Of a DNA stretch of 50,714 bases, positions 10,976 through 28,593 are shown piece by piece. Each line of letters opens with the position of its first letter. Position 1 is the first letter of the stretch. The translations under genes and the position numbers were made by a program. This DNA comes from Deltaproteobacteria bacterium. Lineage in GTDB: Bacteria; Desulfobacterota; Dissulfuribacteria; Dissulfuribacterales; UBA3076. The notes beneath the pieces were generated by a model. That model saw only the letters and a list, made by a program, of their open reading frames with translations. It was not told where the DNA came from and ran no database searches. The DNA lies in NCBI GenBank assembly GCA_011042225.1, contig DQXT01000033.1:1-50714 (forward strand), given 5' to 3'.

Positions 10976-12331
10976 ATGCGCAAGTTGTTTGGTACAGACG
11001 GCATTCGCGGAACAGCCAACATCCATCCTATTACTACTGATATTGCCATGAAAATCGGGCGTGCCGTGGCATATATGTTTAAAAATCGCCGCGGGAGTCA
11101 TCCCAGGATACTCATAGGAAAGGATACTCGATTGTCCTGCTATATGCTGGAAAATGCGCTTGCAGGCGGGATATGTTCAATGGGAGTGGACGTTTTACTG
11201 CTGGGCCCCATGCCTACCCCTGCCATTGCCTTTCTTACCACCAACATGAGAGCGGATGCCGGAGTAGTTATATCTGCATCCCACAATCTCTTTCAGGATA
11301 ATGGAATAAAACTCTTTTCAGGGGATGGATTTAAATTGCCCGACGAGTTGGAAAAACAAATAGAGGAATTGATGGATTCGCAAATATTAACAGAATCCCA
11401 ACCAACCGGGCAAGATGTAGGCAAGGCGGTCCGCATCGAGGATGCCCCCGGCAGGTACATAGTATTTGTAAAAAACACGTTTCCCAAGGATCTTGCGCTG
11501 GATGGCCTCAGGATTGTCCTGGACTGTGCGAATGGGGCTACCTATAAAGTGGCTCCGGCTGTTTTTGAAGAGCTCGGGGCAAAGGTAACCAAATTGGGAG
11601 TAAGTCCAAACGGTACCAATATCAACTACAGGTGCGGAGCGGTTTATCCCGAACTCATGCAGAAGGCTGTAGTCGAGCACAAGGCTGATATTGGAATCGC
11701 ATTTGATGGGGACGGCGACCGTTTAATAGTAGTTGATGAAAAGGGTTCAGTAGTTGATGGCGATCATATTATGACAATATGTGCCTATGATATGATTGAC
11801 AAGGGAAGGCTTAACTTTAATACCGTAGTAGCAACGGTTATGAGCAACATGGGGCTAGAGATTGCTCTGGAGAACAAGGGGGGGAAACTGGTCCGAACTC
11901 AGGTTGGTGACCGCTACGTAGTGGAGGCCATGAGGCAGGCAGGTTACAACTTCGGCGGAGAACAATCGGGGCACCTGGTGTTTCTGGATCATATAACTAC
12001 GGGTGATGGTATTTTGGCTTCTCTACAGCTTTTGGCTATCATGCAAAAAAAGGAAAGGGCCCTTTCAGAACTTGCCGGAACGATGGATTCCTTTCCTCAG
12101 GTACTTCATAATGTCCGCTTGCGGGAGAAAAAGGCTTTAGATGAAATTGCCGGCCTCAGGGAACTCCAAGACCAGTTAGAAAAAGATCTTAAGCACAGGG
12201 GCAGGATACTCGTCAGACCATCAGGTACTGAACCGGTTATACGCATAATGGTTGAAGGCGAAAACGAGGAACAGATACAGGCCATGGCTATGACAATGGG
12301 TAATCATGTTGAGTCGGTCTGTGGAATTTAG
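10976..12331 (+). CDS. glmM: phosphoglucosamine mutase
   Basis: GlmM converts glucosamine-6-phosphate to glucosamine-1-phosphate, feeding UDP-GlcNAc for peptidoglycan and LPS. The N-terminus [12 protein letters not shown] is diagnostic. The phosphoserine loop is SASHN, with the catalytic Ser at residue 102. The metal loop DGDGDR, the sugar-binding GEQSGH and the phosphate-binding [12 protein letters not shown] are all present. Length is 451 residues. Its TAG stop (12329-12331) overlaps the TAA stop of ftsZ on the other strand (12328-12330), so two large wall-synthesis operons collide tail to tail without a spacer or visible terminator. Confidence 0.97.
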
Positions 12332-13518
12332 TCCGCCTTTCTTCTCATAAAGGCGGGGATACTATCCAATTCATCGGTGTTTAGTTTATCAAGGCCGTCA
12401 AAGTCTAATACTGGTTTCTTCGAATTTTTTATGTGGTCGGTTATCCTAATAGGGTCCTTTTTGATACAGATTGACGGATCATGATCCGGTTTCATAGCCT
12501 TACTATTTTTCTTAATAGATTCTATTGGGGTAACAATATGCTTTCCAAAGGAAAGGGCGTCAGATCCTATACCGGTGGCTATTACCGTTACCCTTATCTC
12601 TTCATCTATATTGTCATCAAACACAGTTCCTAAAATTATATTAGCGTCTTCATGCGCCTCGTCGTAAATCAAAGAGGATGCCTGTTCTACCTCCTCCATG
12701 CTCAGAGTAGAACTGCTGGCAGTAATATTCAGCAGGATGCCCTTGGCACCGTTTATGGATATGTCTTCCAGCAAGGGATTGGATATGGCCATCTGTATTG
12801 CCTCCAAGGCCCTGCGTGATCCTTTGGCAACACCCGTACCCATAAGGGCCATCCCCATTTCAGCCGTGACTGTGCGAACATCGGCAAAATCCACATTTAT
12901 ATAACCCCTAAGGACTATGAGATCCGAAATGCCTCTTACTGCATAGTAAAGGACCTCATCTGCCTTTCGGAACATCTCTAGTATGGGAGTATTGGGTTGA
13001 GCCAGATTTCTGAGTCGGTCGTTTGGAATTGTTATTATGGTATCTACTACATCTTTCAATTCCTCTATCCCCTCTTCAGCCACACGCATTCTGCGTTTTC
13101 CTTCAAAGGAAAAAGGTTTTGTCACTACCGCCACTGTAAGGGCACCCAATTCTTTACTTATTTCAGCAATTACAGGGGCACCCCCGGTGCCGGTACCTCC
13201 ACCCATGCCGGCTGTGATAAAGACCATATCACTTCCTTCCAGCATAGTCCGGATATCATCTATGCTCTCTTCCGCGGATTCCCTGCCGATTTCAGGTTTT
13301 GCTCCTGCTCCGAGTCCCTTGGTAAGCCCTTTACCAAGCTGAATCTTTGCGCCGGCTTTGGATATTTCAAGGGCCTGAGAATCAGTGTTTGCAGCTATAA
13401 ACTCGACACCCTTGAGCTCAGAGGAAATCATGCTGTTAATAGCGTTTCCACCTCCGCCACCGACTCCTATTGCCTTTATCCTTGCAGTAAGTTTCGGTTC
13501 TATAAACTCAAAAGACAT
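12328..13518 (-). CDS. ftsZ: cell division protein FtsZ
   Basis: FtsZ is the tubulin-like GTPase that forms the Z ring. The nucleotide-binding glycine loop GGGTGTG is at residues 106-112 and the T7 synergy loop NVDFADV at about 208-214. An intact C-terminal peptide, [11 protein letters not shown], is the docking site for FtsA and other anchors. GGAGGG lies about 8 bases before the ATG. The disordered linker is short. FtsZ is the last gene of the dcw cluster, 39 bp after ftsA. An intact FtsZ and FtsA show that Z-ring division is retained despite the odd FtsI homologue upstream. Confidence 0.98.
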
Positions 13519-13557: not shown

Positions 13558-14781
13558 CTAAATCTTAAACCATGACTTCATACGAAGGGTTACCTTGTTG
13601 AATATATTACCATCCCTTATTCGGAATTTTTTCTGGGAATGATGTTCCATGCCATAAAGCACAAGACCTACAGCAGTAGCAAACATGGGTCCGTTGACCA
13701 CATCCACCAAACCTGAAATCCTCTGTGGGAAGCCGATTCTTGTCGGCAACTGGAATACCTGATCCGCAATCTCAGCGGTTCCCGGCAGTAGGGCAGAGCC
13801 CCCGGTTATAACTATCCCCGAAGCCAATAGTTCCTTAAGTTCTGTCCGTTCTATTTCCTGGTCAATCAAGGTAAAAATCTCCTCTACCCTGGGCTCAAGT
13901 ATTTCAGACAGAATTTGCCTGGACAGAAGCCTGGGTTTACGTCCTCCCACACCGGGAACTTCTATCATCTGACCTCTGTCTGCCAGAGAATTGATACAGC
14001 TGCCGTCGCTTATCTTGATCTGTTCTGCCTCTTTACTGGGTGTCCTTAACCCGACTGCTATATCATTAGTGAGGTTGTTACCGCCAAGTCCCAGTACAGC
14101 TGTGTGTTTTATTGCACTTTCAGTAAATAGAGCAAGATCAGTGGTGCCACCACCAAAGTCCACAAGTGCAACACCCAGATCCTTTTCTTCCTGATTTAAG
14201 ACTGCTTCGGCCGAGGCAATGGGCTGAAAAACTATATCAACCACATCGAGCCCGGCCCTGTTTGCACACTTGATGAGGTTCTGGGCAGCCGTAACTGCTC
14301 CTGTCACGATATGTACCTTGGATTCCAGCCTTACACCGGTTATCCCTATAGGATCCAATATACCGCCCTGTTCATCTACGATATACTCCTGTGGCAGGAT
14401 ATGTATGACCTCTCTATCAAGGGGTATGGCTACCGCCCTTGCCGCATCTATAACTCTGTCAACGTCTTCCTGGGAGACCTCCTGGCCCTGTATGGCTATC
14501 ACCCCGTGACTGTTAAAACCCTTTATATGACTACCGGCGATGCCGATGAACACTGAGCTTATTTCACATCCGGCCATAAGTTCGGCCTCTTCAATAGCCC
14601 TTTTTATGGAATCGACCGTATTATCTATATTGACGACTACTCCCTTTCGCAGACCTACAGAAGGATAAGTCCCTACACCTATAATCTCGGCACTATTCTC
14701 ATTAAACTCGCCCACTACCGCACATATTTTAGTAGTGCCGATATCGAGCCCGACAATCATGTTACCGGGTTTTTCGACCAT
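13558..14781 (-). CDS. ftsA: cell division protein FtsA
   Basis: FtsA is the actin-like ATPase that tethers FtsZ to the membrane and helps recruit the septal wall synthase. It begins MIVGLDIGTTKICAVVGE (phosphate 1 motif), has the FtsA-specific 1C domain (SVFIGIAGSHIKG...), the phosphate 2 loop VDFGGGTTDLA and the adenosine loop GIVITGGSALLPG. It ends in an amphipathic membrane-targeting helix (VTLRMKSWFKI). AGGAGAGG immediately precedes the ATG. It lies 8 bp after ftsQ. Confidence 0.97.
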   Translation of the reverse strand: MVEKPGNMIVGLDIGTTKICAVVGEFNENSAEIIGVGTYPSVGLRKGVVVNIDNTVDSIKRAIEEAELMAGCEISSVFIGIAGSHIKGFNSHGVIAIQGQEVSQEDVDRVIDAARAVAIPLDREVIHILPQEYIVDEQGGILDPIGITGVRLESKVHIVTGAVTAAQNLIKCANRAGLDVVDIVFQPIASAEAVLNQEEKDLGVALVDFGGGTTDLALFTESAIKHTAVLGLGGNNLTNDIAVGLRTPSKEAEQIKISDGSCINSLADRGQMIEVPGVGGRKPRLLSRQILSEILEPRVEEIFTLIDQEIERTELKELLASGIVITGGSALLPGTAEIADQVFQLPTRIGFPQRISGLVDVVNGPMFATAVGLVLYGMEHHSQKKFRIRDGNIFNKVTLRMKSWFKI

Positions 14782-14789
14782 TTCCTCTC

Positions 14790-15635
14790 CTAATGTTTCA
14801 AACTGACCAGGGCTTTGCCGGGACCATAATCGAGTTCCACCTTAACTGCTTTTTTATATGTCCCTGAGCGATAGAGTTGATAAAGGACTTTTTCCGCTCT
14901 ACTAAATTGGACGCCGAGATTTTCATAGTCAAAGTAAAAAGGAATACTGCCATAAGATGTAACCAGTATTAAGGTGTCTTTTTCAGCTATGTCTATTTGG
15001 CTGATATTGTTAACACCCAGAGTTCTTGTGCCCTTACTAGCCATGGATATCAACTCCAGGGCCTTTTGGATTCGGTTATTGTGCGATCTTGTTAAATTGT
15101 TATCTATAATGTTTTTAGGATCAATTCCTGTAATGATTGGAAGAGAGACGGATTCTTCTATTGAAAGTCTATCAATAATTTCGCCTTGTTCATCAATCAG
15201 GTACATTTTGTCGGAGTTCAAAATGGCTACCGGAGTGTGCTCTTTGAGCGTAATCATTAGGTGATCCGGCAATTTTTTTTTAACTTCAACACTATGGACC
15301 CAGGGATGCCCTTCTATGGACTTTGCAATCGATTCCAAGTCGAGAGACAGCAGATTGTCTTGGGCGGTCACATTACTCAATTGCAAAATCTCCTCTTCCG
15401 TGACACGGTCATTGCCTGTAATCAAAACCTGACAGACCCTAAAAAGCTCGGTTTGGTAAGCCCAATGTCGACACAAAAAAAAAGCGACAAAGCCAATGGA
15501 CATTACAGCTATAGCAACCAGTAATTTAGGATATATAGACCACAACACGGAAAACACCGGTTTTGTAGATTTGTCCCGCGAGATGAAGCTACATACTGAA
15601 GACCTGGATTCTAAAGACGGTCTTCTAATTTTCAT
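14790..15635 (-). CDS. ftsQ: cell division protein FtsQ/DivIB
   Basis: FtsQ is a bitopic divisome protein that binds the FtsL-FtsB pair. It has a basic cytoplasmic tail of about 36 residues, one membrane helix (about residues 37-56) and a POTRA domain (about 65-136, FRVCQVLITGNDRVTEEEIL...). A beta domain of the FtsQ type follows (YLIDEQGEIIDRL, IPFYFDYENLGVQF). The start is set at the ATG at 15635: it overlaps the murB stop as ATGA, and the track start five codons upstream would overlap murB further. ddl, often found next to ftsQ, is absent here. Confidence 0.9.
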   Translation of the reverse strand: MKIRRPSLESRSSVCSFISRDKSTKPVFSVLWSIYPKLLVAIAVMSIGFVAFFLCRHWAYQTELFRVCQVLITGNDRVTEEEILQLSNVTAQDNLLSLDLESIAKSIEGHPWVHSVEVKKKLPDHLMITLKEHTPVAILNSDKMYLIDEQGEIIDRLSIEESVSLPIITGIDPKNIIDNNLTRSHNNRIQKALELISMASKGTRTLGVNNISQIDIAEKDTLILVTSYGSIPFYFDYENLGVQFSRAEKVLYQLYRSGTYKKAVKVELDYGPGKALVSLKH

Positions 15636-16609
15636 GTTTCCATACCCCAAAAAGATACCTCCGGAACAAGTTCTACATCAGTCTCTTTTTTTACACGTTC
15701 TTTAATAATTTCCAATAAGTCCATTACCTCTACGGCGCTGGCTTTTCCACGGTTTATAATAAAATTTGCATGCCTTTTGGACACTTCAGCATCCCCAACT
15801 CTAAAACCTTTGAGTCCACATTGGTCTATGAGCTTTCCAGCTGAAACACCGGGGGGATTTTTGAAAATGCATCCCGCGCTTGGTTTTCCTAAAGGCTGGG
15901 TGGCTTTCCGCTGGCACATAGCGCTTCTCAAATGCTGCCTGATCTGATCGGCATTGCTTTTGCCGAATTTAATTCTTGCAGCCGAGATAATAGCATTGTC
16001 TTGCAGTCTGAAGGCCCTGTAATCAAAATACAATTGATCTCTATGAGACCAGCAACTACCATCAGGGCCTGTAAACTGAACAGCGTCTATCACTTCTGCC
16101 ATAAAGCACTTGTTAGTGCCGGCATTCATGAAGATGGCCCCGCCCACACTGGCCGGAATGCCGGAAAGATTTTCAAGACCGCCCAGGCTATTACGCACGG
16201 ACCAGGAAATAAGAGACCTCAGCCTGCAACCTGCCTCTACGTCTACCATTTTAAAGCGATGGCCATTAGCTGATCTCTCTTCCTGTAAAAAGGAACTAGA
16301 AGAAATTTGCCGGTGGTCCTCAGATTCAAATCTGCTTTCCACAGAGCATTGAATACGCTTCAGGGCCGCCAGAGACATAACCAGCTTCACGCCTTTGTCG
16401 CTGATCAAGAGATTGCTTCCTTGACCAATCACCTTATAAGATATGGAACGGTTACTGAGATAAAAAATGGTCTTTTCAAGGGCCTTCAATGTCTTCGGAG
16501 CCAGAAACAGATGTGCAGGCCCACCTATACGAAAACTCGTCAGCGGTAAAAGCGGTACACCTTCAAAGACTTGGAGATCTTCTATCTTTCTTAGATCCTT
16601 AGAGAGCAA
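15632..16609 (-). CDS. murB: UDP-N-acetylenolpyruvoylglucosamine reductase
   Basis: MurB reduces UDP-GlcNAc-enolpyruvate to UDP-MurNAc with NADPH and FAD. The FAD-binding part shows TSFRIGGPAHLFLAP, VIGQGSNLLISDKG and SGIPASVGGAIFMNAGTN. The substrate domain has SAGCIFKNPPG, where the proton-donor Ser position of E. coli MurB is Cys; a Cys also occurs in other MurB proteins as I recall. The C-terminal Glu lies in LVPEVSFWG. A hydrophilic stretch near residues 88-118 (ESEDHRQISSSSFLQEER) looks like a lineage-specific insertion in the FAD domain. Its start overlaps the murC end by 11 nt and its stop overlaps ftsQ as ATGA. Confidence 0.95.
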   Translation of the reverse strand: MLSKDLRKIEDLQVFEGVPLLPLTSFRIGGPAHLFLAPKTLKALEKTIFYLSNRSISYKVIGQGSNLLISDKGVKLVMSLAALKRIQCSVESRFESEDHRQISSSSFLQEERSANGHRFKMVDVEAGCRLRSLISWSVRNSLGGLENLSGIPASVGGAIFMNAGTNKCFMAEVIDAVQFTGPDGSCWSHRDQLYFDYRAFRLQDNAIISAARIKFGKSNADQIRQHLRSAMCQRKATQPLGKPSAGCIFKNPPGVSAGKLIDQCGLKGFRVGDAEVSKRHANFIINRGKASAVEVMDLLEIIKERVKKETDVELVPEVSFWGMET

Positions 16610-17993
16610 TTGCTGACTCCTTTGTCTTAAGCATGCCCAAAATTCTCGGCCCCATATGCCCTATGGTACCAGCCCCAAGAGTCATGACCACGTCACCCTC
16701 CTGCAGGCTCGGCAAAATTGCCTGAGGAAGATCCCCGCATGACTCTATATAGTGTACTGTTCCACCACGTTGATTCATGATATTTCTTGCCAAACGTTTT
16801 CCGCTAACCCCTACTATGGGAGTCTCGCTCGCTGGATATATTTCCGTCAGCCACAGTTCATCAGCTTCTCCAAAGGCAGTGGTGAAATCGTCCATCAATG
16901 CCTGAGTTCTAGTATACCGATGGGGTTCGAAAAGAACCACGAGTCGGCGCTCAGGCCAACATGCCCTGGCGGCTTTGAGAGTGGCCACTATCTCAGTAGG
17001 GTGATGCGCATAGTCATCTACTACAATTATCCTTTCTGTTTCGCCCAATATCTCAAATCGCCTGCCTACACCTTCATATGACATAAGACCGGTCTGGATT
17101 TTGTGAAAGGGTATCTCAAGTTCAAGACCCAGGGCCATTGCGGCCAGAGAATTCCTTACATGGTGCAATCCAGGGACCTTGAGTTGTATCTCGCCAAGTT
17201 CGGAATTCTGCCACCAGGCATTGAAGGATACCCCCGGACCTTTGAAACTGATATCCCTGGCCTGTAGATCACATTCAGGTCCTGTACCATAAGTCATTGT
17301 TCGTTTTTTTACTACCGAGAGCATTTCTCTGAGGTGAGGGTTGTCTCCACAAAGTATGGCAAGACCATAGAAAGGTATTTTGTCTATGAAGTCCTGAAAA
17401 CAGCGTATTATTGCATCCAAATTGGAATAATAATCCAAGTGCTCCCTATCTATATTCGTTACCACGACTATGCTTGGTGTAAGGCGCAAAAAGCTGCCGT
17501 CACTTTCATCGGCTTCTGCTATAAGAAATTCGCCCTGTCCCCAATAGGCATTGCTCCCAATACCATTTACCTTCCCTCCTATGATAACCGTTGGATCAAG
17601 GCCACCGACACGAAGCACGGAAGAGATCATAGAGGTGGTGCTGGTCTTTCCATGTGCCCCGGCCACTGCTATGCCGAATTTTTTGAGCCGCATCAATTCT
17701 GCCACCATTTCAGCCCTTGGTATAACCGGAATTTGGGAAGAAAGTGCCCCCTGCACCTCAAGGTTATGTTCTCTGATGGCAGAGGAAATCACCACTACAT
17801 CGGCACCTTGAATATTTTCAGGGGCATGACCATTGTAAATTGTACCCCCCAATTTTCTTAGAGACCTGGTGATTTCAGTCTCACGCAAATCCGAACCCGT
17901 GACTTTATATCCCAGATTAAGAAGGATTTGTGCAAGGCCGCTCATGCCTATCCCGCCGATTCCTACAAAATGAATATGTTGTTTTTTATACAT
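16599..17993 (-). CDS. murC: UDP-N-acetylmuramate--L-alanine ligase
   Basis: MurC adds the first residue, L-Ala, to UDP-MurNAc. The N-terminal Rossmann motif is GIGGIGMSGLAQIL, the ATP loop is GAHGKTSTT (about residue 113), and AEADESDGSFL and VVTNIDREHLDYY follow. The C-terminal domain has DDYAHHPTEIVATL and FEPHRYTRT. Length of 464 residues is normal. The start overlaps the murG end by 8 nt. All catalytic landmarks are intact, so the cytoplasmic precursor pathway in this cluster is complete. Confidence 0.97.
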   Translation of the reverse strand: MYKKQHIHFVGIGGIGMSGLAQILLNLGYKVTGSDLRETEITRSLRKLGGTIYNGHAPENIQGADVVVISSAIREHNLEVQGALSSQIPVIPRAEMVAELMRLKKFGIAVAGAHGKTSTTSMISSVLRVGGLDPTVIIGGKVNGIGSNAYWGQGEFLIAEADESDGSFLRLTPSIVVVTNIDREHLDYYSNLDAIIRCFQDFIDKIPFYGLAILCGDNPHLREMLSVVKKRTMTYGTGPECDLQARDISFKGPGVSFNAWWQNSELGEIQLKVPGLHHVRNSLAAMALGLELEIPFHKIQTGLMSYEGVGRRFEILGETERIIVVDDYAHHPTEIVATLKAARACWPERRLVVLFEPHRYTRTQALMDDFTTAFGEADELWLTEIYPASETPIVGVSGKRLARNIMNQRGGTVHYIESCGDLPQAILPSLQEGDVVMTLGAGTIGHMGPRILGMLKTKESAIAL

Positions 17994-19188
17994 GGCTGCG
18001 TACTTTAGAACATTTCAATGAATTGGTTTCTTTTTGAGAACATGAAAATGTATGCCCGGCCATCTTCATCAGTGTAGAGGCCATATCTGCAGCCGCCTTG
18101 GGCCTTCCGAGTTTGCGCGCATTTTCTCCCATATTGTTGAGTTTTTGAGGATCCTCCAGTAAAGACTGTATCTCTCCTGCCAGTTTTATAGCTCCGACTT
18201 CTCCTTCCAGGAAATATTTGGAAGCCCCGGCTTCAGCCAGTTTTCTGGCGTTTGCATCCTGATGGCCGTCTGTTGCCCAAGGATAGGGAATAAGTATCGA
18301 AGGCTTTCCCGTAATCGCGAGTTCAGCCAAAGTACCCGCTCCTGCCCGGCAAATAACCAGATCTGCCCAGGAATAGGACTCACCAATGTCGGAAATAAAT
18401 TGGACCACTTTGGCCGGAATATTTGCATCTGCATAAAATTTCTCAACATAAGACATATCCAGCCTTCCTGTCTGGTGAATAATTCCCAAATGAAAACCAG
18501 ATTGCCACAGAACCTCTATGGCTGAACTGGCAAGCCGGTTCATGCATGTGGCACCCTGACTACCACCCAGGACCAAAATATTGTGTGATTGTGCGATCTT
18601 ATGATTTTGTGATTGGAATATGTCTTTCCGCACTGGATTTCCCGTAAAAATTACTCTGTTTCTTGGAAAATATTTGGTAGTCTCCTTAAAGCTCACAAAA
18701 ACTGTCTTTACAAATTTAGAGGCCAAACGATTTGTGAGGCCGGGTATAAGGTTCTGCTCATGAAGTGCTGCAGGTATCCGCAGTATCCGCGCTGCAAGAA
18801 GTGTGGGACCCGAGACATATCCGCCGACACCGAGCACCACATGAGGCCTGAATGATTTGAGCCACGAACAAGCCCTGATAGTGGAGAAAGGAAGTCCAGC
18901 CAGAGAACGTACAGTCCCTGAAATGCCTGAGCCCCTCAAAGGCCCCGTATTAAGGATTTTATAATCCCATTTATGTTCTAAAAGCGCATTTTTTTCCACC
19001 GGGCGGCCTGTACCTATCCACATAACATCTATAGGGCCGTATGATTCCATGGCCTCAACCACTGCCATTCCGGGAAATACATGCCCTCCCGTGCCGCCAC
19101 CAGCCACCACTAATTTGATGATTTGCCGGTTTGATGATTCGGTATTTGTTTTGTGCTTATATATTTCTCGACTCTTAGCCAAATTCAT
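17986..19188 (-). CDS. murG: UDP-GlcNAc:lipid I N-acetylglucosaminyltransferase
   Basis: MurG converts lipid I to lipid II at the inner face of the membrane. The N-terminal donor loop VVAGGGTGGHVFPG, the second glycine loop LGVGGYVSGPTLLAA, EQNLIPGLTNR, FTGNPVRKD, VLGGSQGA and the UDP-GlcNAc site VICRAGAGTLAEL are present. The listed start gives about 25 residues before the usual beginning and the C-terminus runs about 25 residues past it. The N-terminal extra piece and the segment FQSQNHKIAQSHN are both encoded by short repeated units (AATCATCAAA and AATCACA types), unlike the rest of the gene. The usual upstream neighbour ftsW is absent; murD ends 54 bp before. Confidence 0.95.
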   Translation of the reverse strand: MNLAKSREIYKHKTNTESSNRQIIKLVVAGGGTGGHVFPGMAVVEAMESYGPIDVMWIGTGRPVEKNALLEHKWDYKILNTGPLRGSGISGTVRSLAGLPFSTIRACSWLKSFRPHVVLGVGGYVSGPTLLAARILRIPAALHEQNLIPGLTNRLASKFVKTVFVSFKETTKYFPRNRVIFTGNPVRKDIFQSQNHKIAQSHNILVLGGSQGATCMNRLASSAIEVLWQSGFHLGIIHQTGRLDMSYVEKFYADANIPAKVVQFISDIGESYSWADLVICRAGAGTLAELAITGKPSILIPYPWATDGHQDANARKLAEAGASKYFLEGEVGAIKLAGEIQSLLEDPQKLNNMGENARKLGRPKAAADMASTLMKMAGHTFSCSQKETNSLKCSKVRSHV

Positions 19189-19242
19189 GACCTGCTCGCA
19201 GCTTTATTTTTAAATTAAAGTTCCTTTCCTGAAATAACCAAA

Positions 19243-20664
19243 TCACTCAATCAATAAATCATTCAATTCCCTGGCTGCCTCCTGAAAGGCCATGCCACGT
19301 TCTTCATAATTTTCGAACATGTCAAAGCTGGAACAGGCCGGGGAAAGAATTATTGCATCGCCGGGCTCAGCCAGGGACCTAGCTTTCTCCACGGCTTTTT
19401 TCATAACCTTTTTGCCTTCTTTTGTCCCATGTACTTTAACAACCGGCATTACCTTACCCAGAATTTTTTCAAACGCCTTGGCCTCTTCACCTATAACGAT
19501 CGCACCACGAACAACTGTCTTTTTAGCGATATCGGCCAGGGAACCATAATTTTCACCTTTGCCACGGCCGCCCAAAATAATTACTATTGGCTGTTCTATG
19601 GACTCTAGTGCACAAAGTACGGATGCAACATTAGTGGCCTTAGAATCGTCATAATAGTCGATACCCCCGTTTTGGACCACCCACTGAATTCTATGATTCG
19701 CTGCTTTGAAAATTCGAATAACAGACTTTACTGCAACAGCACCTGCACCTGCCAGACGTGAAATAAGTATGGCACAAGCCAAATTTTCAACATTATGTCG
19801 ACCCTTTAGAGACCAGCTTTCCAAATCATATCTTTCCCACGTATTATCAGACCACATTATGTCGATCTTTTTCAAAGAGGTGTCCAGCCCGGCCCCTGGA
19901 ACTCCAGGGCTCAGCATCCCAAAGTAAAGCCTTCTGGCACGTCCCCGGTCATTCCAAGTTTCTAGTTCCTTGTCATTCATGTTGCGTATGGACCAGTCAC
20001 CAGGCCCTTGAAAATCATAGATTACTGCCTTGCTGTCTCCGTAGCTTTTAATGTTCTGATAACGATCAAGATGATCCGGGGCAAGATTGAGCCATGCGGT
20101 TATATTGAACCTTGGGGGATTAAAGTTGAAATATCTGGTCCTCGGGAAATAATCCAATTGAAAACTGCTAATCTCAAGGACAGCAATAGTTTGCTCAGTA
20201 TGTCCTTCAATAAATGCCGACAAGGGTGTTCCGATGTTCCCAGCCCTTACATGAGGCACACCGGCCTTATTCAGCATCTCATCTACAAGCATCGTGGTAG
20301 TAGTTTTTCCATTTGTGCCGGTGATAGCAATAAGCGGTCCTTTCCAGACAGATGCAGCAAGGGCCATTTCTCCCAACACAGGGATGTTGTGCTTGTGTGC
20401 CGCCTCAAGGGCAGAAATTTCAGGTGAGACACCAGGGCTGACCACTATCAGGTCAGAGGAGAGGCAAGTGTCTATCTTGTGCTTTTTTGTCTCTATGCCG
20501 ACACCATTTTGGTGACACCATCTTGTGAAATCATTAGGCCATTCCTTAAGGGCATTTAAGTCACTGCATATGACTTGTGCCCCTTGAGAGACGATCCATC
20601 TGGCGGCTGCCTGCCCGGATACTCCCATGCCCAGTATTGTTACTTTTTTGCCCTTAAGCTCCAC
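19243..20664 (-). CDS. murD: UDP-N-acetylmuramoyl-L-alanine--D-glutamate ligase
   Basis: MurD adds D-Glu to UDP-MurNAc-L-Ala. It has the Rossmann start VTILGMGVSGQAAARW, VVSPGVSP, the ATP loop ITGTNGKTTTT (about residue 115), EISSFQLD and PDHLDRY. The C-terminal domain has LKGRHNVEN, YYDDSKATN, ILGGRGKGENY and LSPACSSFDMFENYEERG. Between SSFQLD and PDHLDRY there are about 8 more residues than usual (an Arg/Phe/Asn-rich insert). It lies 96 bp after mraY, the widest gap within the cluster apart from that, and 54 bp before murG where ftsW would normally sit. Confidence 0.95.
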   Translation of the reverse strand: MELKGKKVTILGMGVSGQAAARWIVSQGAQVICSDLNALKEWPNDFTRWCHQNGVGIETKKHKIDTCLSSDLIVVSPGVSPEISALEAAHKHNIPVLGEMALAASVWKGPLIAITGTNGKTTTTMLVDEMLNKAGVPHVRAGNIGTPLSAFIEGHTEQTIAVLEISSFQLDYFPRTRYFNFNPPRFNITAWLNLAPDHLDRYQNIKSYGDSKAVIYDFQGPGDWSIRNMNDKELETWNDRGRARRLYFGMLSPGVPGAGLDTSLKKIDIMWSDNTWERYDLESWSLKGRHNVENLACAILISRLAGAGAVAVKSVIRIFKAANHRIQWVVQNGGIDYYDDSKATNVASVLCALESIEQPIVIILGGRGKGENYGSLADIAKKTVVRGAIVIGEEAKAFEKILGKVMPVVKVHGTKEGKKVMKKAVEKARSLAEPGDAIILSPACSSFDMFENYEERGMAFQEAARELNDLLIE

Positions 20665-20760: not shown

Positions 20761-21840
20761 CTATCTCAATTTGAGCGTGCTGATTGCCAACAGCCCAAGC
20801 AATATGGAAATTATCCAAAACCTTACAATGACCTTTGGTTCTTTCCATCCTTTAAGCTCAAAATGATGATGGATAGGTGCCATACGGAAGATCCTCTTGC
20901 CTCCTGTTGTTTTGAAGTAAAGGACCTGAAGAATTACGGATAATGCCTCAATAACAAAAATCCCGCCTACAATTACAAGCAGCATTTCCTGCTTTGAAAG
21001 TACGGCCACCGTCCCAAGAGCCCCTCCCAAGGAAAGGGAGCCGACATCTCCCATGAAGATCTGGGCCGGATAGGTATTATACCAGAGGAAACCCAGACCG
21101 GCGCCTACCATGGCGCCACAAAACACTGCAAGCTCTCCTGCACCAGGAACCGAAGGAATCCGAAGGTATTGTGCAAGAGTCGAATGACCCGCCAGGTAGG
21201 TAAACAGGGTGTAAACCGCTGCAGCTATTATAAAAGGGCCTGCGGCAAGTCCGTCCAGACCATCGGTCAGGTTAACCGCATTAGAGGTCCCCACAACCAC
21301 AAGCAGAGCGAAAAGACCATACATAATTCCTAGATCAGGCTGAAAATTCTTAAAAAAAGGAATACTAAGATGGGTATCCCACTTACCATGTGCGGCAATT
21401 AACCCTGCGGCTAAAAATACAAAAACTATTTGCCCGACAAGCTTCAATCTGCCCGACAGACCTTTGGCATTCTTTTTCCAGATCTTTAACAGGTCGTCTA
21501 CGAGACCTATTATACCGTAACCGACAAGGATTAAAATGCTTATCCAAACATAAAGGTTTCTTAAGTCAGCCCAGAGAAGTGTAGCGATTAGAATGGACCC
21601 TATGATTAATATGCCCCCTATACTCGGTGTTCCGGCTTTTGTATGATGTATTGTCGGCCCATCGTCCCGGATGATCTGGCCCATCTGCATTTCACACATA
21701 ATTCTTATAAACCAAGGTCCAAAAATCAATATTATTGAAAGGGCAGTCACTGCAGCGTATATTGTTCTAAATGTAATATAGCGAAAAACGTTAAATACAG
21801 GCCACATATCGTTAAGGGGATATAGCAGATGAAAAAGCAT
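20761..21840 (-). CDS. mraY: phospho-N-acetylmuramoyl-pentapeptide transferase
   Basis: MraY transfers phospho-MurNAc-pentapeptide to undecaprenyl phosphate, making lipid I. It is a polytopic membrane protein of normal length (359 residues) with about ten helices. It shows the catalytic-site motifs GLVDDLLKI (Asp pair), [29 protein letters not shown] and the C-terminal loop [13 protein letters not shown]. The start is 3 bp after the murE-murF stop, so the two are tightly coupled. Confidence 0.97.
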
Positions 21841-21843
21841 AGC

Positions 21844-24800
21844 CTATACTGTCAACCCCCCTCTTTTACCCTCTCCCAGTTGCCTGATAAGGGCATTTAC
21901 CGCTCTCTCGAGACCTATGGCCCTTGATCCCTTTACAAGTATAGTTGCCGGAAAGGGCATACAATCAAGAGCAGCTAATTCTATCCAGGAAAGCAGATCT
22001 TCAATGTCAGGGAAAACACGTATAGCCTTTTTTGAAATACCCGCCTTTCTGGCTGTTTCAGAAACAGCATCAGCAAATTCGCCTATTAAGACCAAGAGAT
22101 CAACCCCCGTATTGGCTGAAATTCTTCCGAGTTCCTGATGAAACTCGTAGGCAGCATCTCCAAGTTCCAGCATATCTCCCAGAATCGCTATCTTTTTCCC
22201 GCCTCCGCTCCAAAAATCCAGAGTCTCAAGAGCCGATCGCATAGAGCAGGGGTTTGCATTATAAGAATCATCGATCAGCATCCATTTAGGTCCAAGATTT
22301 CTCAAAAAAAGGCGCCCCGGGAGCGGCCTTGCTTCCTCCAGCCCCTGTTTGATCAAAGCCGGCGTCACCCCTACTGCATGACCTGCAGCTGCAGATGCAA
22401 CGGCATTTTGTACATTCGCCTTCCCTATAAGGTGAAGATCAACATAAAGTCTGTTTCCGGCAATATCCAGATCCAGCAAAGTGCCATGTTCGCTTAATGT
22501 CCATGACAGGCAGGTAATTTTATCATTTGAAGATTTTAAAATTTGGTGATCTGGAAACGAATCCGCCTTTTGTCCCATTGAATAGCCCACGACCTGACAT
22601 TTTAGGTCTTTGGCCCCCTCCATCACCATAGGATCATCAAGGTTAACCACTGCTACACCCGTCTGGGAAATGGCTCGCCACAGCTCCCACTTTTCTTGGG
22701 CTACTGCCTTTAAGTCCCCCAGACCGACAAGATGGGCAGGTTGAATTGTAGTAATAAGGGCTACTTGCGGCTGGGCAATTTCACAGAGTCGTGATATTTC
22801 TCCCGGTTGGTTGGTTCCCATTTCCAGCACTGCCCAAGAATCGTTGGATCCGGCGGAAAGCAGGCTAAGCGGCAGGCCGATAAGGTTATTAAAATTGCCA
22901 CTGGTTTTAGCGACTTTCCATTTTTTTTTCAGGATCGAGAAAATCAGTTCTTTTGTGGTTGTCTTGCCGCAACTACCCGTAATGCCGATTACTTTGATTC
23001 CAAGATGGTTTTTATACCATGCTGCGAAATCTCCTAAGGCCTTTAATACATCCTGGACTTGCAATAAAACGGGACGACAAGATCGAGGGTCTAAATTCAA
23101 GTTTCGGAAGTCAAAGCTAGAACTAATTACTGCACTAGTACATCCTTGTCCTACAGCATCAAGGATAAAATCGTGCCCATTGAAACGGTCCCCGGAAAGT
23201 GCCCAAAAAATATTTGCCTTTCTTACTGATCTGGAATCTGTCGATATGCCCTGGATTAATGTATTAGGGTCACCTGAAAGAACTCTGGCTCCAATAGCCG
23301 TTGCCACCTGAGAAGCCTTTAATCGAAATCCATAATCCTCAAAATTCTCAAGCGTTGACCTTCCAGCTTCTATCTTTGATTCAAAGGCCTTTGTCAATAT
23401 TTCTCTGTCGTCAAAGACAAGTCGTTCCCTGCCGATTATTTGGTAGGTTTCGTGGCCCTTCCCAGCCACGAGAAGACAAACACCGGGCTGCGCCCTTTCT
23501 ACTGCCCATGAAATAGCTGCTTCTCTATCTGGAATTATTTTCACTTCAGCTTTGGTTGCAGGGTGACAGGGAGGGAGATCTCGGAGACCGTTCAACATCT
23601 GATCGATTATTGCAAGGGGATCTTCAGTACGAGGATTATCCGAAGTCAACACAACAATATCTGCCAGTGAAGCAGCTGCCCGGGCCATTAGAGGACGCTT
23701 GCCTCTGTCTCTGTCTCCTCCGCAGCCGATAACACAGATCAGAAGCTTATTAGGCCCTAACCCGATAAGGCTGCTAAGAACACTTTCCAGAGCGTCAGGG
23801 GTGTGTGCGTAATCTACAAAAGCGGTGACTCCATTGTGAGAATATACAGGATCCAGTCTTCCCGGAATACGTATTATTGATTTTATGCCGGCCTGAATAT
23901 GGTCCGGCTCTATCCCGAGACTGATTGAAACCGCTACTGTTGCAAGGATATTGTATAGGTTGTGCAAACCCATAAGCTTGGATTTGATGGAAATAGGGCC
24001 TTTGGGCGTAGATATATCACATATTATTCCTTCACTATCAATAAATTGAAACTCCGGTTTTACCTCTGCTTCAGGGCTGAGGCCATAACTGATCTTTTTC
24101 TCTTTTACTATCTCCCACAGACGCCTTCCATATAAGTCATCAATGTTAATAATTGCCGCATCAGAGGGATATTTCAAAAATAATTTTACTTTCGCCTGAA
24201 AGTATTGTTCCATGTCTTGGTGATAATCCAGGTGATCGCGACCTAGGTTGGTAAAAATAGATGCTGCGAAACTACATCCTGAGATCCTCTGCTGGTCAAG
24301 GGCATGGGAAGACACCTCTAAGGCCACTGCCTTTGCGCCTCTTTTCAACATGTTGGCCAGGGTCTCCTGAAGTTTTACGGCATCAGGGGTAGTAAGTTCA
24401 GAAGGCACCTCTATGCCGCAATGTCTTTGGCTTATCGAGCCTATTACACCGGGATTCAGCCCGGCTTTGCTGAAAATGCCTTCCAGGAGGTATGAAATCG
24501 TAGTCTTACCATTAGTGCCTGTAATAGCTATAAGAGACATTTTTTCACTTGGATTTCCATAAAAAGCACTTGCCAAAAGACCTATGGAAAGCCTGGGATC
24601 GTCCACTCCTATAACAGGCAAGGCCATGGGAACGTTTTTGACGTAATGATGCAGATCTTGCCTAGACATCAACACGGCGGAGGCACCTTTCACCACGGCA
24701 TCATTGATAAATTGTCTTCCGTCAAATTCAGTGCCTGGAATTGCAACAAACATGTATTCCCGTTTTACCTGTCTGGAGTCTGCTGTTATACCCCTGATTT

Positions 24801-24894
24801 TTACGTCGTACTTCTCAAATGATATAAAAACAGCGGGCTTCAACACTTCCAACATATCCCGCAAGGTCCTTTCGTTTTGCGTATTACCAAACAT
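21844..24894 (-). CDS. murE-murF: MurE-MurF fusion: DAP-adding ligase and tripeptide:D-Ala-D-Ala ligase
   Basis: One ORF of about 1,016 codons encodes two complete Mur ligases. Residues 1-508 are MurE: ITADSRQV, the ATP loop ITGTNGKTT (about 126-133), ALEVSSHAL, and the DNPR motif (about 420) that marks meso-diaminopimelate specificity. Residues 524-1017 are MurF: ISTDSRSV, ITGSCGKTT (about 640), LEMGTNQPGEI, DDSYNANP and LGDMLELG. A linker of about 15 residues without an internal Met joins them, so this is a fusion and not two overlapping genes. MurE/MurF fusions are known elsewhere, for example in Bordetella. The ATG at 24894 shares one base with the upstream TGA; the track begins one codon earlier at GTG. 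mraY follows after 3 bp. Confidence 0.95.
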   Translation of the reverse strand: MFGNTQNERTLRDMLEVLKPAVFISFEKYDVKIRGITADSRQVKREYMFVAIPGTEFDGRQFINDAVVKGASAVLMSRQDLHHYVKNVPMALPVIGVDDPRLSIGLLASAFYGNPSEKMSLIAITGTNGKTTISYLLEGIFSKAGLNPGVIGSISQRHCGIEVPSELTTPDAVKLQETLANMLKRGAKAVALEVSSHALDQQRISGCSFAASIFTNLGRDHLDYHQDMEQYFQAKVKLFLKYPSDAAIINIDDLYGRRLWEIVKEKKISYGLSPEAEVKPEFQFIDSEGIICDISTPKGPISIKSKLMGLHNLYNILATVAVSISLGIEPDHIQAGIKSIIRIPGRLDPVYSHNGVTAFVDYAHTPDALESVLSSLIGLGPNKLLICVIGCGGDRDRGKRPLMARAAASLADIVVLTSDNPRTEDPLAIIDQMLNGLRDLPPCHPATKAEVKIIPDREAAISWAVERAQPGVCLLVAGKGHETYQIIGRERLVFDDREILTKAFESKIEAGRSTLENFEDYGFRLKASQVATAIGARVLSGDPNTLIQGISTDSRSVRKANIFWALSGDRFNGHDFILDAVGQGCTSAVISSSFDFRNLNLDPRSCRPVLLQVQDVLKALGDFAAWYKNHLGIKVIGITGSCGKTTTKELIFSILKKKWKVAKTSGNFNNLIGLPLSLLSAGSNDSWAVLEMGTNQPGEISRLCEIAQPQVALITTIQPAHLVGLGDLKAVAQEKWELWRAISQTGVAVVNLDDPMVMEGAKDLKCQVVGYSMGQKADSFPDHQILKSSNDKITCLSWTLSEHGTLLDLDIAGNRLYVDLHLIGKANVQNAVASAAAGHAVGVTPALIKQGLEEARPLPGRLFLRNLGPKWMLIDDSYNANPCSMRSALETLDFWSGGGKKIAILGDMLELGDAAYEFHQELGRISANTGVDLLVLIGEFADAVSETARKAGISKKAIRVFPDIEDLLSWIELAALDCMPFPATILVKGSRAIGLERAVNALIRQLGEGKRGGLTV

Positions 24895-26651
24895 CACTCG
24901 CAGGTTATACTGCAGGTCTTCACACCATTAAGAGGTATTCCTGATTCTGGTTTCTGCGCGATCACGGTCCCTACACCTTTGAGCTCTGTATAAATGCCCA
25001 TGGATTGCAAAATGTCCAGGGCCTGTCTTACGGATTTTCCCTTAAGATTCGGCATAGTGGAAAACTGTCTTTCTGCCTCTTCGGTTTTCACCGTTCGCCA
25101 TTCGTCTTTCAAGGGTATCTGCACCGCCTGTTTTGCTACTACCAGTGAACGCCCTAAAGTGCCCCGACGCTCACGAGGGTCGATTTTTACGCCGTCGAGC
25201 AAAACAATATAACTTACTTTGGGTGATCTTTCGGGCCAGAATCCTAGGGCAGTAACCTGTGCTGGAAATTGATTAGAAATTTGGTCAGACTGTTCATTCC
25301 ACCTGATACTCGCAAGAGACGGCCCTCCTCTGACCGCGAGCTTTCTCAGCGATTTGTGTATCAGTTCTTCTGTCAACCAGGAAATTGGGGCATGCTTTTG
25401 GTCATTCGCGGAAGAGCCCGGTATCAAAAATTCATCAGTGCTTTGTAGGGCCACGTGCGGTGTAACTAATATATTTTTATTTATCAGGGCAGAGAAGGCC
25501 CTGAGAATCTGGATAGGACTGGCGGTAACGGCCTGCCGCAAGAGGCTATTACGTAACCCTGCCGGGGCTGATGGGAGGCTGCCCCGGCCTTCACCCGGAA
25601 GGTCGATACCTGTAAATTGACCAAATCCCAGACCCCAGAGATCTCTTGAAATGTCATTATAAGGGACAATATCCTTTAACTCCTTTTCAGTCCAGGGACT
25701 CCATAATACCATACCCTTATCCAAAACCTCCCATTGGCACTGGTGGGCGGTTTTCCCCAAAGGCAAAATCTCTGACTTTTGAAGTTCACTTTGTTCAAAC
25801 ATCCAGTTTAAAAGGGGCACAAGTATCATCAGGTCAACATTATCTTGGAGAGAATAGTTTATGATATTCCTCTCAGATATTTCCCAAAAACGTTCAGGAT
25901 CCCAGGAAGGCTTGCTGGCAAGGGCAAGAATCTCACCATTTTCAACACCCATTATAACAAAACAGCCTTTCTCTGCCTTAAGTCTTTTGATCTGCCTGTC
26001 AAGCTCTTTTTCTGCTGATGACTGAATATCTTTACTAAGTGCAAGCGTAAGATCCTGTCTACCTGGGTAAATTTGTGACCCTTTAGTTTGCCTTAAAAGG
26101 CTATCATATGTGTATTCAATTCCCTCAAGACCTCTGCCGCCTTGGTCGACAAATCCCAAAACCGGAGAAGCCAGTGAATTACAAGGATATACCCTTTTAT
26201 ATTGTTCCAGTATTTCTAAGCCTCTAACCTGCATGTCTTTGAGCTTCCGGCCTTGTTCTTCGGAAATACAGTCTTTTAGACATATAAGGTCCTGCTCATC
26301 TGCAAGCATATCTTTCAAAGTTGGCAAATCAAGGTCAAGAATTTCTGACACCTCTGCCAGCCAATCATCAACTTGCCGCAAACGGGAAGGCCGCGCCAAG
26401 ATAGAGATTTTTTTTTGGTTTGCAACAAATATTGCTCCTGTCCTGTCAAGGATCATGCCTCTATCTAAGGGACTTTGCTGGGAATAGTAGCCGGTGTTTT
26501 GTTGTTGACAAAGCATGGACGAATCAATGTCATCTTCGCTATTGACAGCGTTGCCTTGCCAAAGACAACCAACAAACGCTGCGGCAATAACAGCAAGACT
26601 CAATAAGCTGAAAAGAAAAGAAATTTTCTTTTTTTTATAAGGAAAAATCAT
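24894..26651 (-). CDS. FtsI/PBP-fold protein lacking all transpeptidase motifs, with PASTA domain
   Basis: Its position between ftsL and murE and its architecture identify it as the dcw FtsI homologue. It has one N-terminal membrane helix, the class B PBP start RGMILDRTGAIFVAN, VLGFVDQGGRGLEGIE, the pre-catalytic GENGEILAL-type strand (VENGEILALASKPSWDP), LGFGQFTGIDLPGEGRG and AVTASPIQILRAFSALIN. A C-terminal PASTA domain starts at about residue 530 (MPNLKGKSVRQALDIL). Where EPGSTFK should follow the ERNxxNYSLQD segment it reads NVDLMILVPLL, with no Ser or Lys. The SxN segment is shortened away before LGFGQF, and the KTGT strand before TALGFWPE is missing. The ORF is uninterrupted, so this is not a frameshift artefact. 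I infer a non-catalytic scaffold. A SAEK and an SLRK string occur but in other structural positions. Confidence 0.85.
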   Translation of the reverse strand: MIFPYKKKKISFLFSLLSLAVIAAAFVGCLWQGNAVNSEDDIDSSMLCQQQNTGYYSQQSPLDRGMILDRTGAIFVANQKKISILARPSRLRQVDDWLAEVSEILDLDLPTLKDMLADEQDLICLKDCISEEQGRKLKDMQVRGLEILEQYKRVYPCNSLASPVLGFVDQGGRGLEGIEYTYDSLLRQTKGSQIYPGRQDLTLALSKDIQSSAEKELDRQIKRLKAEKGCFVIMGVENGEILALASKPSWDPERFWEISERNIINYSLQDNVDLMILVPLLNWMFEQSELQKSEILPLGKTAHQCQWEVLDKGMVLWSPWTEKELKDIVPYNDISRDLWGLGFGQFTGIDLPGEGRGSLPSAPAGLRNSLLRQAVTASPIQILRAFSALINKNILVTPHVALQSTDEFLIPGSSANDQKHAPISWLTEELIHKSLRKLAVRGGPSLASIRWNEQSDQISNQFPAQVTALGFWPERSPKVSYIVLLDGVKIDPRERRGTLGRSLVVAKQAVQIPLKDEWRTVKTEEAERQFSTMPNLKGKSVRQALDILQSMGIYTELKGVGTVIAQKPESGIPLNGVKTCSITCE

Positions 26652-26662
26652 TCTGATCTCGA

Positions 26663-27025
26663 TCAGTTGAGATATATTATTTGCCGTTTAGTAGGTGGAT
26701 GAAGTCCCATTTCACCCCCCAATTTTTCCATATGGCTGCGTGCCTTGATCCGATCCAGCCGAGTGGTGAAATCCTTATATCGATTACTGAGTCGGCCTTG
26801 TTCCCTTTGAAGCAACTCTAAGTCCTTTGCTGTTTCTCTGACTTCGTGAGTAATCAAAATTCCTAGAATTAATAAAGCGCCTAAAACAATCAGCGCAATG
26901 GCCTTATTAAGGCTCATTTTGAGTATTTTTGATAACAAAAGGTGGTCACAGGCCCTGTTTTTCTGTGCCGTCGAAACATATGAGCGTCTCTGGGGTGTTC
27001 TAATTGTTGCTGATCGGAGACTCAT
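26663..27025 (-). CDS. ftsL: FtsL-like cell division protein
   Basis: The protein is about 120 residues from the second Met. It has a basic cytoplasmic N-terminus, one membrane helix (about residues 42-58, AIALIVLGALLILGILI), and a heptad-rich segment (LELLQREQGRLSNRYKDF). It ends MEKLGGEMGLHPPTKRQIIYL, the usual FtsL C-terminal pattern. FtsL pairs with FtsB and activates the FtsW-FtsI synthase. The start at 27025 is chosen because GGGAGGGGAG precedes it and its ATG overlaps the stop of the small upstream ORF as ATGA. Sequence identity in this family is low; position and topology carry the call. Confidence 0.8.
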   Translation of the reverse strand: MSLRSATIRTPQRRSYVSTAQKNRACDHLLLSKILKMSLNKAIALIVLGALLILGILITHEVRETAKDLELLQREQGRLSNRYKDFTTRLDRIKARSHMEKLGGEMGLHPPTKRQIIYLN

Positions 27026-27204
27026 TTTCTCCCCTCCCAAAACAGGTTTTTGTCAAAAGGCTCAAGGGCACTTTTATGTTTCTGTCGGGAAAATAGCAAT
27101 CTGAGGTATTGCTTCAGATTTTCACCTGCTGCAAGACAAGCCGAACATTTCTTATTTCCGAGAAATTTTGAGACTTGTATCTTAGACTTTTTGAGTGAAG
27201 TCAT
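27022..27204 (-). CDS. small Lys-rich CxxC protein between rsmH and ftsL
   Basis: A 60-codon ORF begins 26 bp after the rsmH stop with AAAGG about 8 bases before its ATG, and its TGA overlaps the ftsL ATG (ATGA). This is the same 4-nt coupling seen for murB-ftsQ in the cluster. The product is basic (FLGNKKCSACLAAGENLK..., ending PFDKNLFWEGRK), has one CxxC pair and no membrane helix or signal peptide. I recognise no family. It could be a real dcw protein or a leader ORF whose translation sets ftsL expression. The start signal, intact frame and coupling argue against chance. Confidence 0.55.
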   Translation of the reverse strand: MTSLKKSKIQVSKFLGNKKCSACLAAGENLKQYLRLLFSRQKHKSALEPFDKNLFWEGRK

Positions 27205-27230: not shown

Positions 27231-28133
27231 TTATAGTAATTGGGTCAGAGCAGTATTCTGCCCTCTATATTGAGCAACTCTTAGCTTGGCACTTCTAGCC
27301 CGGGGATTACTATTTATTTCTTCAAGGCTTGGCACCAAAGGTTTTTTAGTTAAGGGCTTCAATCTCTTGTCTTCTCTGAAAGCGATTTTGACCAGACGGT
27401 CCTCCATAGAATGAAAGGAGATAACACACATTCGTCCTCCGGGTCTCAGACAAGATGGGAATGAGTCAAGGGCCTCTTTAAGATTGTCCAGTTCTCGGTT
27501 CAATGCGATTCGAAGTGCCTGGAAGGTGCGTGTAGCGGGATGAATTCGGCGTGGATGATATTTTCTCGGAATGGAATCGGCAATCACTTCCGCCAGGTCT
27601 CTCGAACTCAGAATAACTTCTGCCTTGCGCCTTTCATATATGCGTTTGGCGATCCTTTTTGCCCATCTTTCTTCCCCATATGTATGGATAAGCTCGGTCA
27701 ATCTTTCAACCGAAAGCTTATTGACTATGTCGGCAGCAGTCACTGCACCAGATTGATCCATGCGCATGTCAAGAGGTTCGTCCCTGGAAAAGCTGAAGCC
27801 TCTCCCGCTGTTTTCCAAATGGAAGCTGGAAATGCCGAGATCCATAAGTATGCCATCAACTTGCTCTATTCTGTTGGATAAAAGAACATCACGAAGATGA
27901 ATGAAGTTGCTGTAAACTAATCGAACCCTGCTGCCAAATGCGGCCAATCTGGATCCGGCCTTTTTCATGGCTTCTGTATCATAATCAAGGGCCAGCACCA
28001 TTTTGACTTCGGGGCACCTTGACAGTATGGCCTCTGTATGGCCTCCCAGACCAAGTGTTGCATCCACATAGATACCCCCTGACCTCAATGACAGGCCATC
28101 CAGAACTTCGGAGAGCATTACAGGGACATGCAT
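27231..28133 (-). CDS. rsmH: 16S rRNA (cytosine(1402)-N(4))-methyltransferase
   Basis: RsmH (MraW) methylates N4 of C1402 in the ribosomal P site using S-adenosylmethionine. Motifs seen are HVPVMLSEVLDGL at the start, the SAM loop VDATLGLGGHTEAIL, LALDYDTEAM, DGILMDLGISSFHLE, and the C-terminal VISFHSMEDRLVK and NPRARSAKLRVA. The start is set at ATG 28133 (MHVPVML), where family similarity begins, 10 bp after the mraZ stop with AGAGG just before it. The longer track ORF would overlap mraZ by 50 nt and adds an unlikely 20-residue tail. Confidence 0.95.
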   Translation of the reverse strand: MHVPVMLSEVLDGLSLRSGGIYVDATLGLGGHTEAILSRCPEVKMVLALDYDTEAMKKAGSRLAAFGSRVRLVYSNFIHLRDVLLSNRIEQVDGILMDLGISSFHLENSGRGFSFSRDEPLDMRMDQSGAVTAADIVNKLSVERLTELIHTYGEERWAKRIAKRIYERRKAEVILSSRDLAEVIADSIPRKYHPRRIHPATRTFQALRIALNRELDNLKEALDSFPSCLRPGGRMCVISFHSMEDRLVKIAFREDKRLKPLTKKPLVPSLEEINSNPRARSAKLRVAQYRGQNTALTQLL

Positions 28134-28143
28134 GGCCTCTTTT

Positions 28144-28593
28144 CTAACCGCTAATTCCGAATTTGGCGGTGATATCGCTGCTGTACTGATCAAAGTTACT
28201 CCTAGTCTTCTGCAATTCTTTGTTCAAGCTGTCCCGGTTTGATATTTCAAAATAGGTAAGCATACCCGAAAGAACCACATCCCTGGTCAATACCGCCTCT
28301 TCACGAAGCCTCTGGGGTATCAATATTCTCCCCTGAGCATCCAGTGAACATTCCGCTGCAGCTCCCAACAGGTATCTTTTAAAGGCTATGACTTCAGGAG
28401 GCCCGAATTGAAACCGGCTGAAATGTTCTTCTATTTTTCTCCATTCCTCAAAAGGATAAGCTGCAAGGCAAGAGGGCAAGTTGGTAACTACCAGCCGGTC
28501 ATCATATTTTGCCTGCAAGAACTCTCTAAAACGCGCCGGAATGCTAAGACGGCCCTTGGCATCCAAAACATGGGCTGACCGTCCTCTAAACAT
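28144..28593 (-). CDS. mraZ: transcriptional regulator MraZ
   Basis: MraZ is a ring-forming DNA-binding protein that represses the dcw operon in E. coli. Two SpoVT/AbrB-like half domains are visible: DAKGRLSIPARFRE near residue 11 and DAQGRILIPQRLRE near residue 83. The length of 149 residues is normal. It is the first gene of the cluster and has typical MraZ boxes directly upstream (28601-28626), so autoregulation is likely. Confidence 0.95.
   Translation of the reverse strand: MFRGRSAHVLDAKGRLSIPARFREFLQAKYDDRLVVTNLPSCLAAYPFEEWRKIEEHFSRFQFGPPEVIAFKRYLLGAAAECSLDAQGRILIPQRLREEAVLTRDVVLSGMLTYFEISNRDSLNKELQKTRSNFDQYSSDITAKFGISG

Follow-up and report, generated by a model that had tools for sequence, protein, structure and literature searches.

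Bacterial division is commonly held to depend everywhere on the pair formed by FtsW and FtsI, and the locus described here raises the question of what becomes of septal wall synthesis in rods whose division cluster encodes neither enzyme in working form. The window, which is the whole stretch of 50,714 nucleotides that was analysed, comes from a member of the Dissulfuribacterales and carries a dcw cluster on its minus strand. Reading along that strand, the cluster comprises the following features:

28144..28593, minus strand: mraZ, named by position and dcw-locus similarity, and syntenic in nearly all dcw loci reaching that far
27231..28193, minus strand: mraW (rsmH), named in the same manner, and syntenic in dcw loci reaching that far
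26663..27040, minus strand: ftsL-like gene, 125 aa, between mraW and ftsI, with a weak FtsL_2 match (23.4 bits, just below the cut-off of 24.6)
24894..26651, minus strand: FtsI-derived pseudo-transpeptidase, 585 aa, assigned from domain matches, motif alignment, model fold and dN/dS
21844..24897, minus strand: murE-murF fusion, 1017 aa (NF008896 918.8 bits, below its cut-off of 1023; TIGR01085 and TIGR01143 above cut-off)
20761..21840, minus strand: mraY (TIGR00445 above cut-off)
19243..20664, minus strand: murD, 473 aa (TIGR01087 382.1 bits, cut-off 212)
19189..19242, no strand: the 54-bp murD-murG junction, an empty ftsW slot, where outgroups carry ftsW
17986..19188, minus strand: murG, 400 aa (TIGR01133 315.7 bits, cut-off 250)
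16599..17993, minus strand: murC (TIGR01082 above cut-off)
15632..16609, minus strand: murB (TIGR00179 above cut-off)
14790..15650, minus strand: ftsQ, retained, with POTRA and FtsQ_DivIB_C domains (PF08478 67.4 bits)
13558..14781, minus strand: ftsA, retained (TIGR01174 above cut-off)
12328..13518, minus strand: ftsZ, retained (TIGR00065 above cut-off)

The interval between murD and murG leaves no room for a polytopic protein of approximately 370 residues, and a PF01098 search of the window recovered no SEDS protein; both the spacing and the absence had been pointed out in the initial annotation, and coordinates and profile search agree with it. In 16 outgroup genomes, ftsW is found exactly between murD and murG. 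The joining of murE and murF in a single frame is a separate peculiarity of the window, the two genes being distinct in some members of the order (G012, G013, G021 and G034).

The genome to which the window belongs (2.05 Mb in 153 contigs, 96.4% complete) encodes a single SEDS protein detectable with PF01098, located at positions 34806-35834 of contig C4. This protein is RodA: it scores 402.6 bits against TIGR02210 (cut-off 336.7) and falls below the FtsW threshold (TIGR02614, 296.1 bits for a cut-off of 337.5), and a tree built from 67 SEDS proteins groups it with 48 others on the side of RodA, the dcw-encoded SEDS proteins all grouping on the FtsW side with a support of 1.0. Its gene is preceded by mreB, mreC, a candidate mreD (placed by position, having no Pfam match) and mrdA, the latter encoding a PBP2 with intact motifs, so that clade, profile, operon and partner are all those of a RodA/PBP2 elongasome; the mreBCD-mrdA-rodA order is also present in genomes G014, G012, G005, G017, G025 and G013. 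Contig C4 also harbors an unusual fusion (locus L108, 3673-6264, plus strand), an 863-aa ORF in which a Mur ligase (residues 16-467) is joined to a queuine tRNA-ribosyltransferase (508-860).

Profile searches at family cut-offs and the SEDS tree thus reveal no FtsW-clade protein in the window's genome or in the order, and an intact ftsW-ftsI pair was looked for elsewhere in the genome and not found. FtsW has been lost from both the dcw cluster and the genome, and has not been relocated. The initial annotation had proposed that the pair was replaced or relocated as a unit, with RodA/PBP2 or a class A PBP as possible substitutes; relocation is not supported, no second intact division PBP having been found, while the substitutes that it named are indeed the candidates that remain. 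A count across the genome yields RodA as the one SEDS protein, and MrdA, a class A PBP and a membrane transpeptidase (P0002, described below) as the recognized transpeptidases.

The same pattern holds throughout the order. Exactly one SEDS protein was counted in 34 of 34 order-mates that are at least 90% complete (a few of the matches being contig-edge fragments), and the closed genome G014 (2,025,450 bp), which matches Dissulfurimicrobium hydrothermale of the Dissulfuribacterales, is no exception. In 23 order genomes besides the window's, murD and murG are adjacent with no ftsW between them. A scan of 394 genomes of the phylum, from which single-SEDS families were picked and their dcw loci compared, uncovered ten further families without a recognizable ftsW in the slot (f25, f28, f35, f39, f63, f71, f72, f81, f95 and f103), with RodA beside mrdA in every case where that locus was retrieved. 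The recurrence of this adjacency in the order and in ten other families indicates that it is not due to chance, and what was first noted for a single genome must be widened to an order-wide trait that spans multiple classes.

The second partner has met a different fate. The FtsI of the window displays a hydrophobic N-terminus that ends in a lipobox-like AFVGC (C29), a PBP_dimer pedestal domain (63-195; PF03717, 50 bits), a transpeptidase-like remnant (approximately 207-490) and a PASTA domain (532-571). Alignment with MrdA from the same genome and with outgroup FtsI shows that SxxK, SxN and KTG are all absent, the first of these being replaced as follows:

25812..25859, minus strand: NYSLQDNVDLMILVPL, residues 265-280, aligned to ..APASTFK.. 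of active enzymes, with the catalytic serine and lysine absent

All three motifs have been lost from FtsI in each of the 34 order genomes examined, among them that of the window (families f1 and f3-f11), as well as in the ten ftsW-less families outside the order, where FtsI is either dead or a stub (25 of 25 genomes). Conversely, FtsI motifs are intact in 16 of 16 sampled genomes that carry ftsW in the slot, although in G055 they are split over two ORFs. The catalytic decay of FtsI and its coincidence with the loss of ftsW, both suspected from the window, therefore extend well beyond it. The strength of this association must be read in light of the species-level tree (FastTree on six concatenated dcw proteins), in which the ftsW-less label requires two changes, one for the main group that includes the window's order and a separate one for f35/f63, so that a perfect association amounts to only about two independent events.

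A number of observations from the phylum scan are of interest in their own right. The opposite reduction is seen in f29, f33, f89 and f108, where the sole SEDS protein is a dcw-encoded FtsW accompanied by an intact FtsI, with no RodA match in the genomes sampled. In f35/f63, the ftsW slot is occupied by a hydrophobic ORF of approximately 262 residues (L271, 11385-12170, plus strand; L273, 6792-7583, L274, 6847-7638, and L277, 6885-7679, all minus strand), downstream of an FtsI stub of 250-340 residues in which only a weak PASTA match is recognized; this ORF family has no Pfam match, and when it was compared with FtsW by hhalign, as a candidate degenerate FtsW, the probability came to 1.5%. Within f25 (loci L101, L102, L300 and L301), genome G148, which is 99% complete, has no SEDS match at all, and in the one-contig genome G059 rodA is split between two frames; the sequences may be in error in these cases, or else these bacteria divide and elongate with no SEDS protein.

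Dead ftsI is not a decaying pseudogene, as its frames are open and its dN/dS within the genus (0.25-0.37) is near that of ftsQ (0.22-0.25); purifying selection thus still acts on the gene and preserves its frame. An AlphaFold model of the window's FtsI (mean pLDDT 75, pTM 0.69) has as its best match PBP3/FtsI from P. aeruginosa (7onx, E 8.7e-30, TM 0.55/0.65), and this fold evidence is supportive rather than independent, since intact FtsI in the alignment used for the model may bias it. The R-x3-LQ juxtamembrane motif occurs in 18 of 26 intact FtsI/MrdA sequences but in none of the dead FtsIs, the one apparent exception being the N-terminal half of the frame-split intact FtsI of G055; this absence is consistent with a lost SEDS contact. 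In addition, the lipoprotein pattern PROSITE PS51257 is matched in the window's FtsI and in 12 other sequences from f1/f9, and a GC dipeptide ends the hydrophobic N-terminus in nearly all f1/f9 members (it is missing from two f1 proteins, and the strict pattern is not followed by several), which suggests that in these families the membrane anchor may have changed and that dead FtsI is possibly a lipoprotein.

With FtsW deleted and FtsI catalytically dead, the division wall of these rods must be the work of other enzymes. One class A PBP, carrying glycosyltransferase and transpeptidase domains, is present per order genome that is at least 90% complete, except in G012, where an additional small transglycosylase occurs; in G013, G019, G021 and G027 the only two recognized transpeptidases are MrdA and the class A PBP. 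As RodA and this class A PBP are the only known glycan polymerases left, the septal polymerase must be the class A PBP, RodA, or an enzyme that is not recognized as such. The reading that we favor, with moderate confidence, is that the septal SEDS-bPBP synthase has been lost as an enzyme and that the sole class A PBP acts in its place. The class A PBP would build the septum, as PBP1 does in C. difficile, RodA/MrdA would handle elongation, and dead FtsI could serve as a non-catalytic divisome scaffold that links FtsQ and FtsL to the class A PBP. Divisome regulators can indeed act directly on a class A PBP: in E. coli, the polymerase activity of PBP1b is kept in check by FtsBLQ, and FtsN lifts this repression (PMC6325244). 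The gene context of the class A PBP revealed nothing linking it to division, and its retention does not discriminate between readings, since FtsW-bearing outgroups also carry class A PBPs. In addition, PASTA has been lost from dead FtsI in f4-f6 and most of the protein in f35/f63; since dead FtsI has no single domain common to all lineages, a scaffold role that is the same throughout fits poorly. For f1/f9, a more specific and distinctly speculative version, to which we assign a low probability, would have FtsI converted from a transmembrane transpeptidase into a non-catalytic component of the divisome, anchored by a lipid and bearing PASTA, whose role at the septum is to activate the one class A PBP; a former synthase would in this way have become a counterpart of the Lpo activators.

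The most serious competitor, possible but rather doubtful, is that RodA/MrdA performs both jobs, the elongasome pair being recruited to the septum, potentially via dead FtsI, and producing both septal and side wall. No other SEDS-bPBP pair remains, the motifs of MrdA are intact, and the pair is universal and single-copy in the order; however, its genes sit with mreBCD, a hallmark of dedicated elongasomes, the missing R-x3-LQ motif argues against dead FtsI as a SEDS partner, and the cases of G148 and G059 noted above, where sequence error is possible in both, would be difficult to reconcile with a RodA-built septum. Sequence cannot decide between the class A PBP and RodA/MrdA as the septal synthase.

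It is considerably less probable that the role has passed to another transpeptidase or polymerase, or to one that escaped detection. The example at hand is P0002 (contig C66, locus L110, 8494-9906, minus strand), a 470-aa membrane transpeptidase whose N-terminus carries a single hydrophobic segment and whose SxxK, SxN and KSG motifs are intact, while PBP_dimer and polymerase domains are absent from it. It is found in f1, in most of f9 and in some FtsW-bearing outgroups (G046 and G053), and was not found in f2-f8, f10 or f11, a patchy distribution that rules it out as a general replacement transpeptidase. Finally, the reading by which ftsW lies in a missing part of a 153-contig, 96%-complete assembly, with FtsI a local pseudogene, has a negligible probability and is rejected, since the murD-murG junction sits within a single contig, the pattern recurs in closed G014, across the order and in other families, and the FtsI frames are open and conserved.

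The findings have consequences beyond this locus. In a large Gram-negative lineage, the Z-ring, FtsA and FtsQ persist in the absence of septal SEDS-bPBP activity, a state reached in two independent events, and as the lineage includes a cultured rod with a closed genome, D. hydrothermale, what FtsW-FtsI is needed for becomes testable, as does the possibility of a class A PBP as main septal synthase outside Clostridia. The retained dead FtsI, for its part, offers a natural separation between the structural and the catalytic roles of the protein.

Parts of this picture have precedents. No published report of inactive FtsI in these groups was found in the open-access literature, and several elements appear unreported: that FtsI has died catalytically and yet been retained, that this is strictly linked to the loss of ftsW, that the trait extends to Dissulfuribacterales and to other families, that a second event took place independently, and that the set of synthases left is minimal. 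The E. coli FtsW-FtsI divisome shares with the present cluster the gene order around the slot and the presence of FtsQ, FtsA and FtsZ, but neither the FtsW nor the FtsI enzyme activity is encoded here. Within the same phylum, ftsW, ftsN and zipA have been reported missing from four Desulfobulbaceae genomes, including cable bacteria and Desulfobulbus (PMC7873302), where ftsW is likewise gone from both cluster and genome; that work still assigns septal activity to FtsI, whereas here FtsI lacks catalytic motifs and the trait is found in many more families. Thermodesulfobacteria have also lost ftsW from the dcw cluster, and the portion of that account drawn on here (PMC8871954) covers gene presence in the cluster, describing neither the fate of FtsI nor a whole-genome SEDS count. 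The closest parallel is C. difficile, in which the only class A PBP, PBP1, is the divisome synthase and vegetative division proceeds without FtsW or FtsI (PMC10693644). The window's genome presents the same gene complement, with no canonical FtsW/FtsI activity for division, a single class A PBP and a sole SEDS-bPBP pair, RodA/PBP2, beside mreBCD. The two nevertheless differ: C. difficile keeps catalytic, dcw-encoded SpoVE and SpoVD for sporulation, while in the present lineage, which is Gram-negative and lies outside the Firmicutes, the SEDS gene has been deleted and the dcw-encoded bPBP has become a pseudoenzyme.
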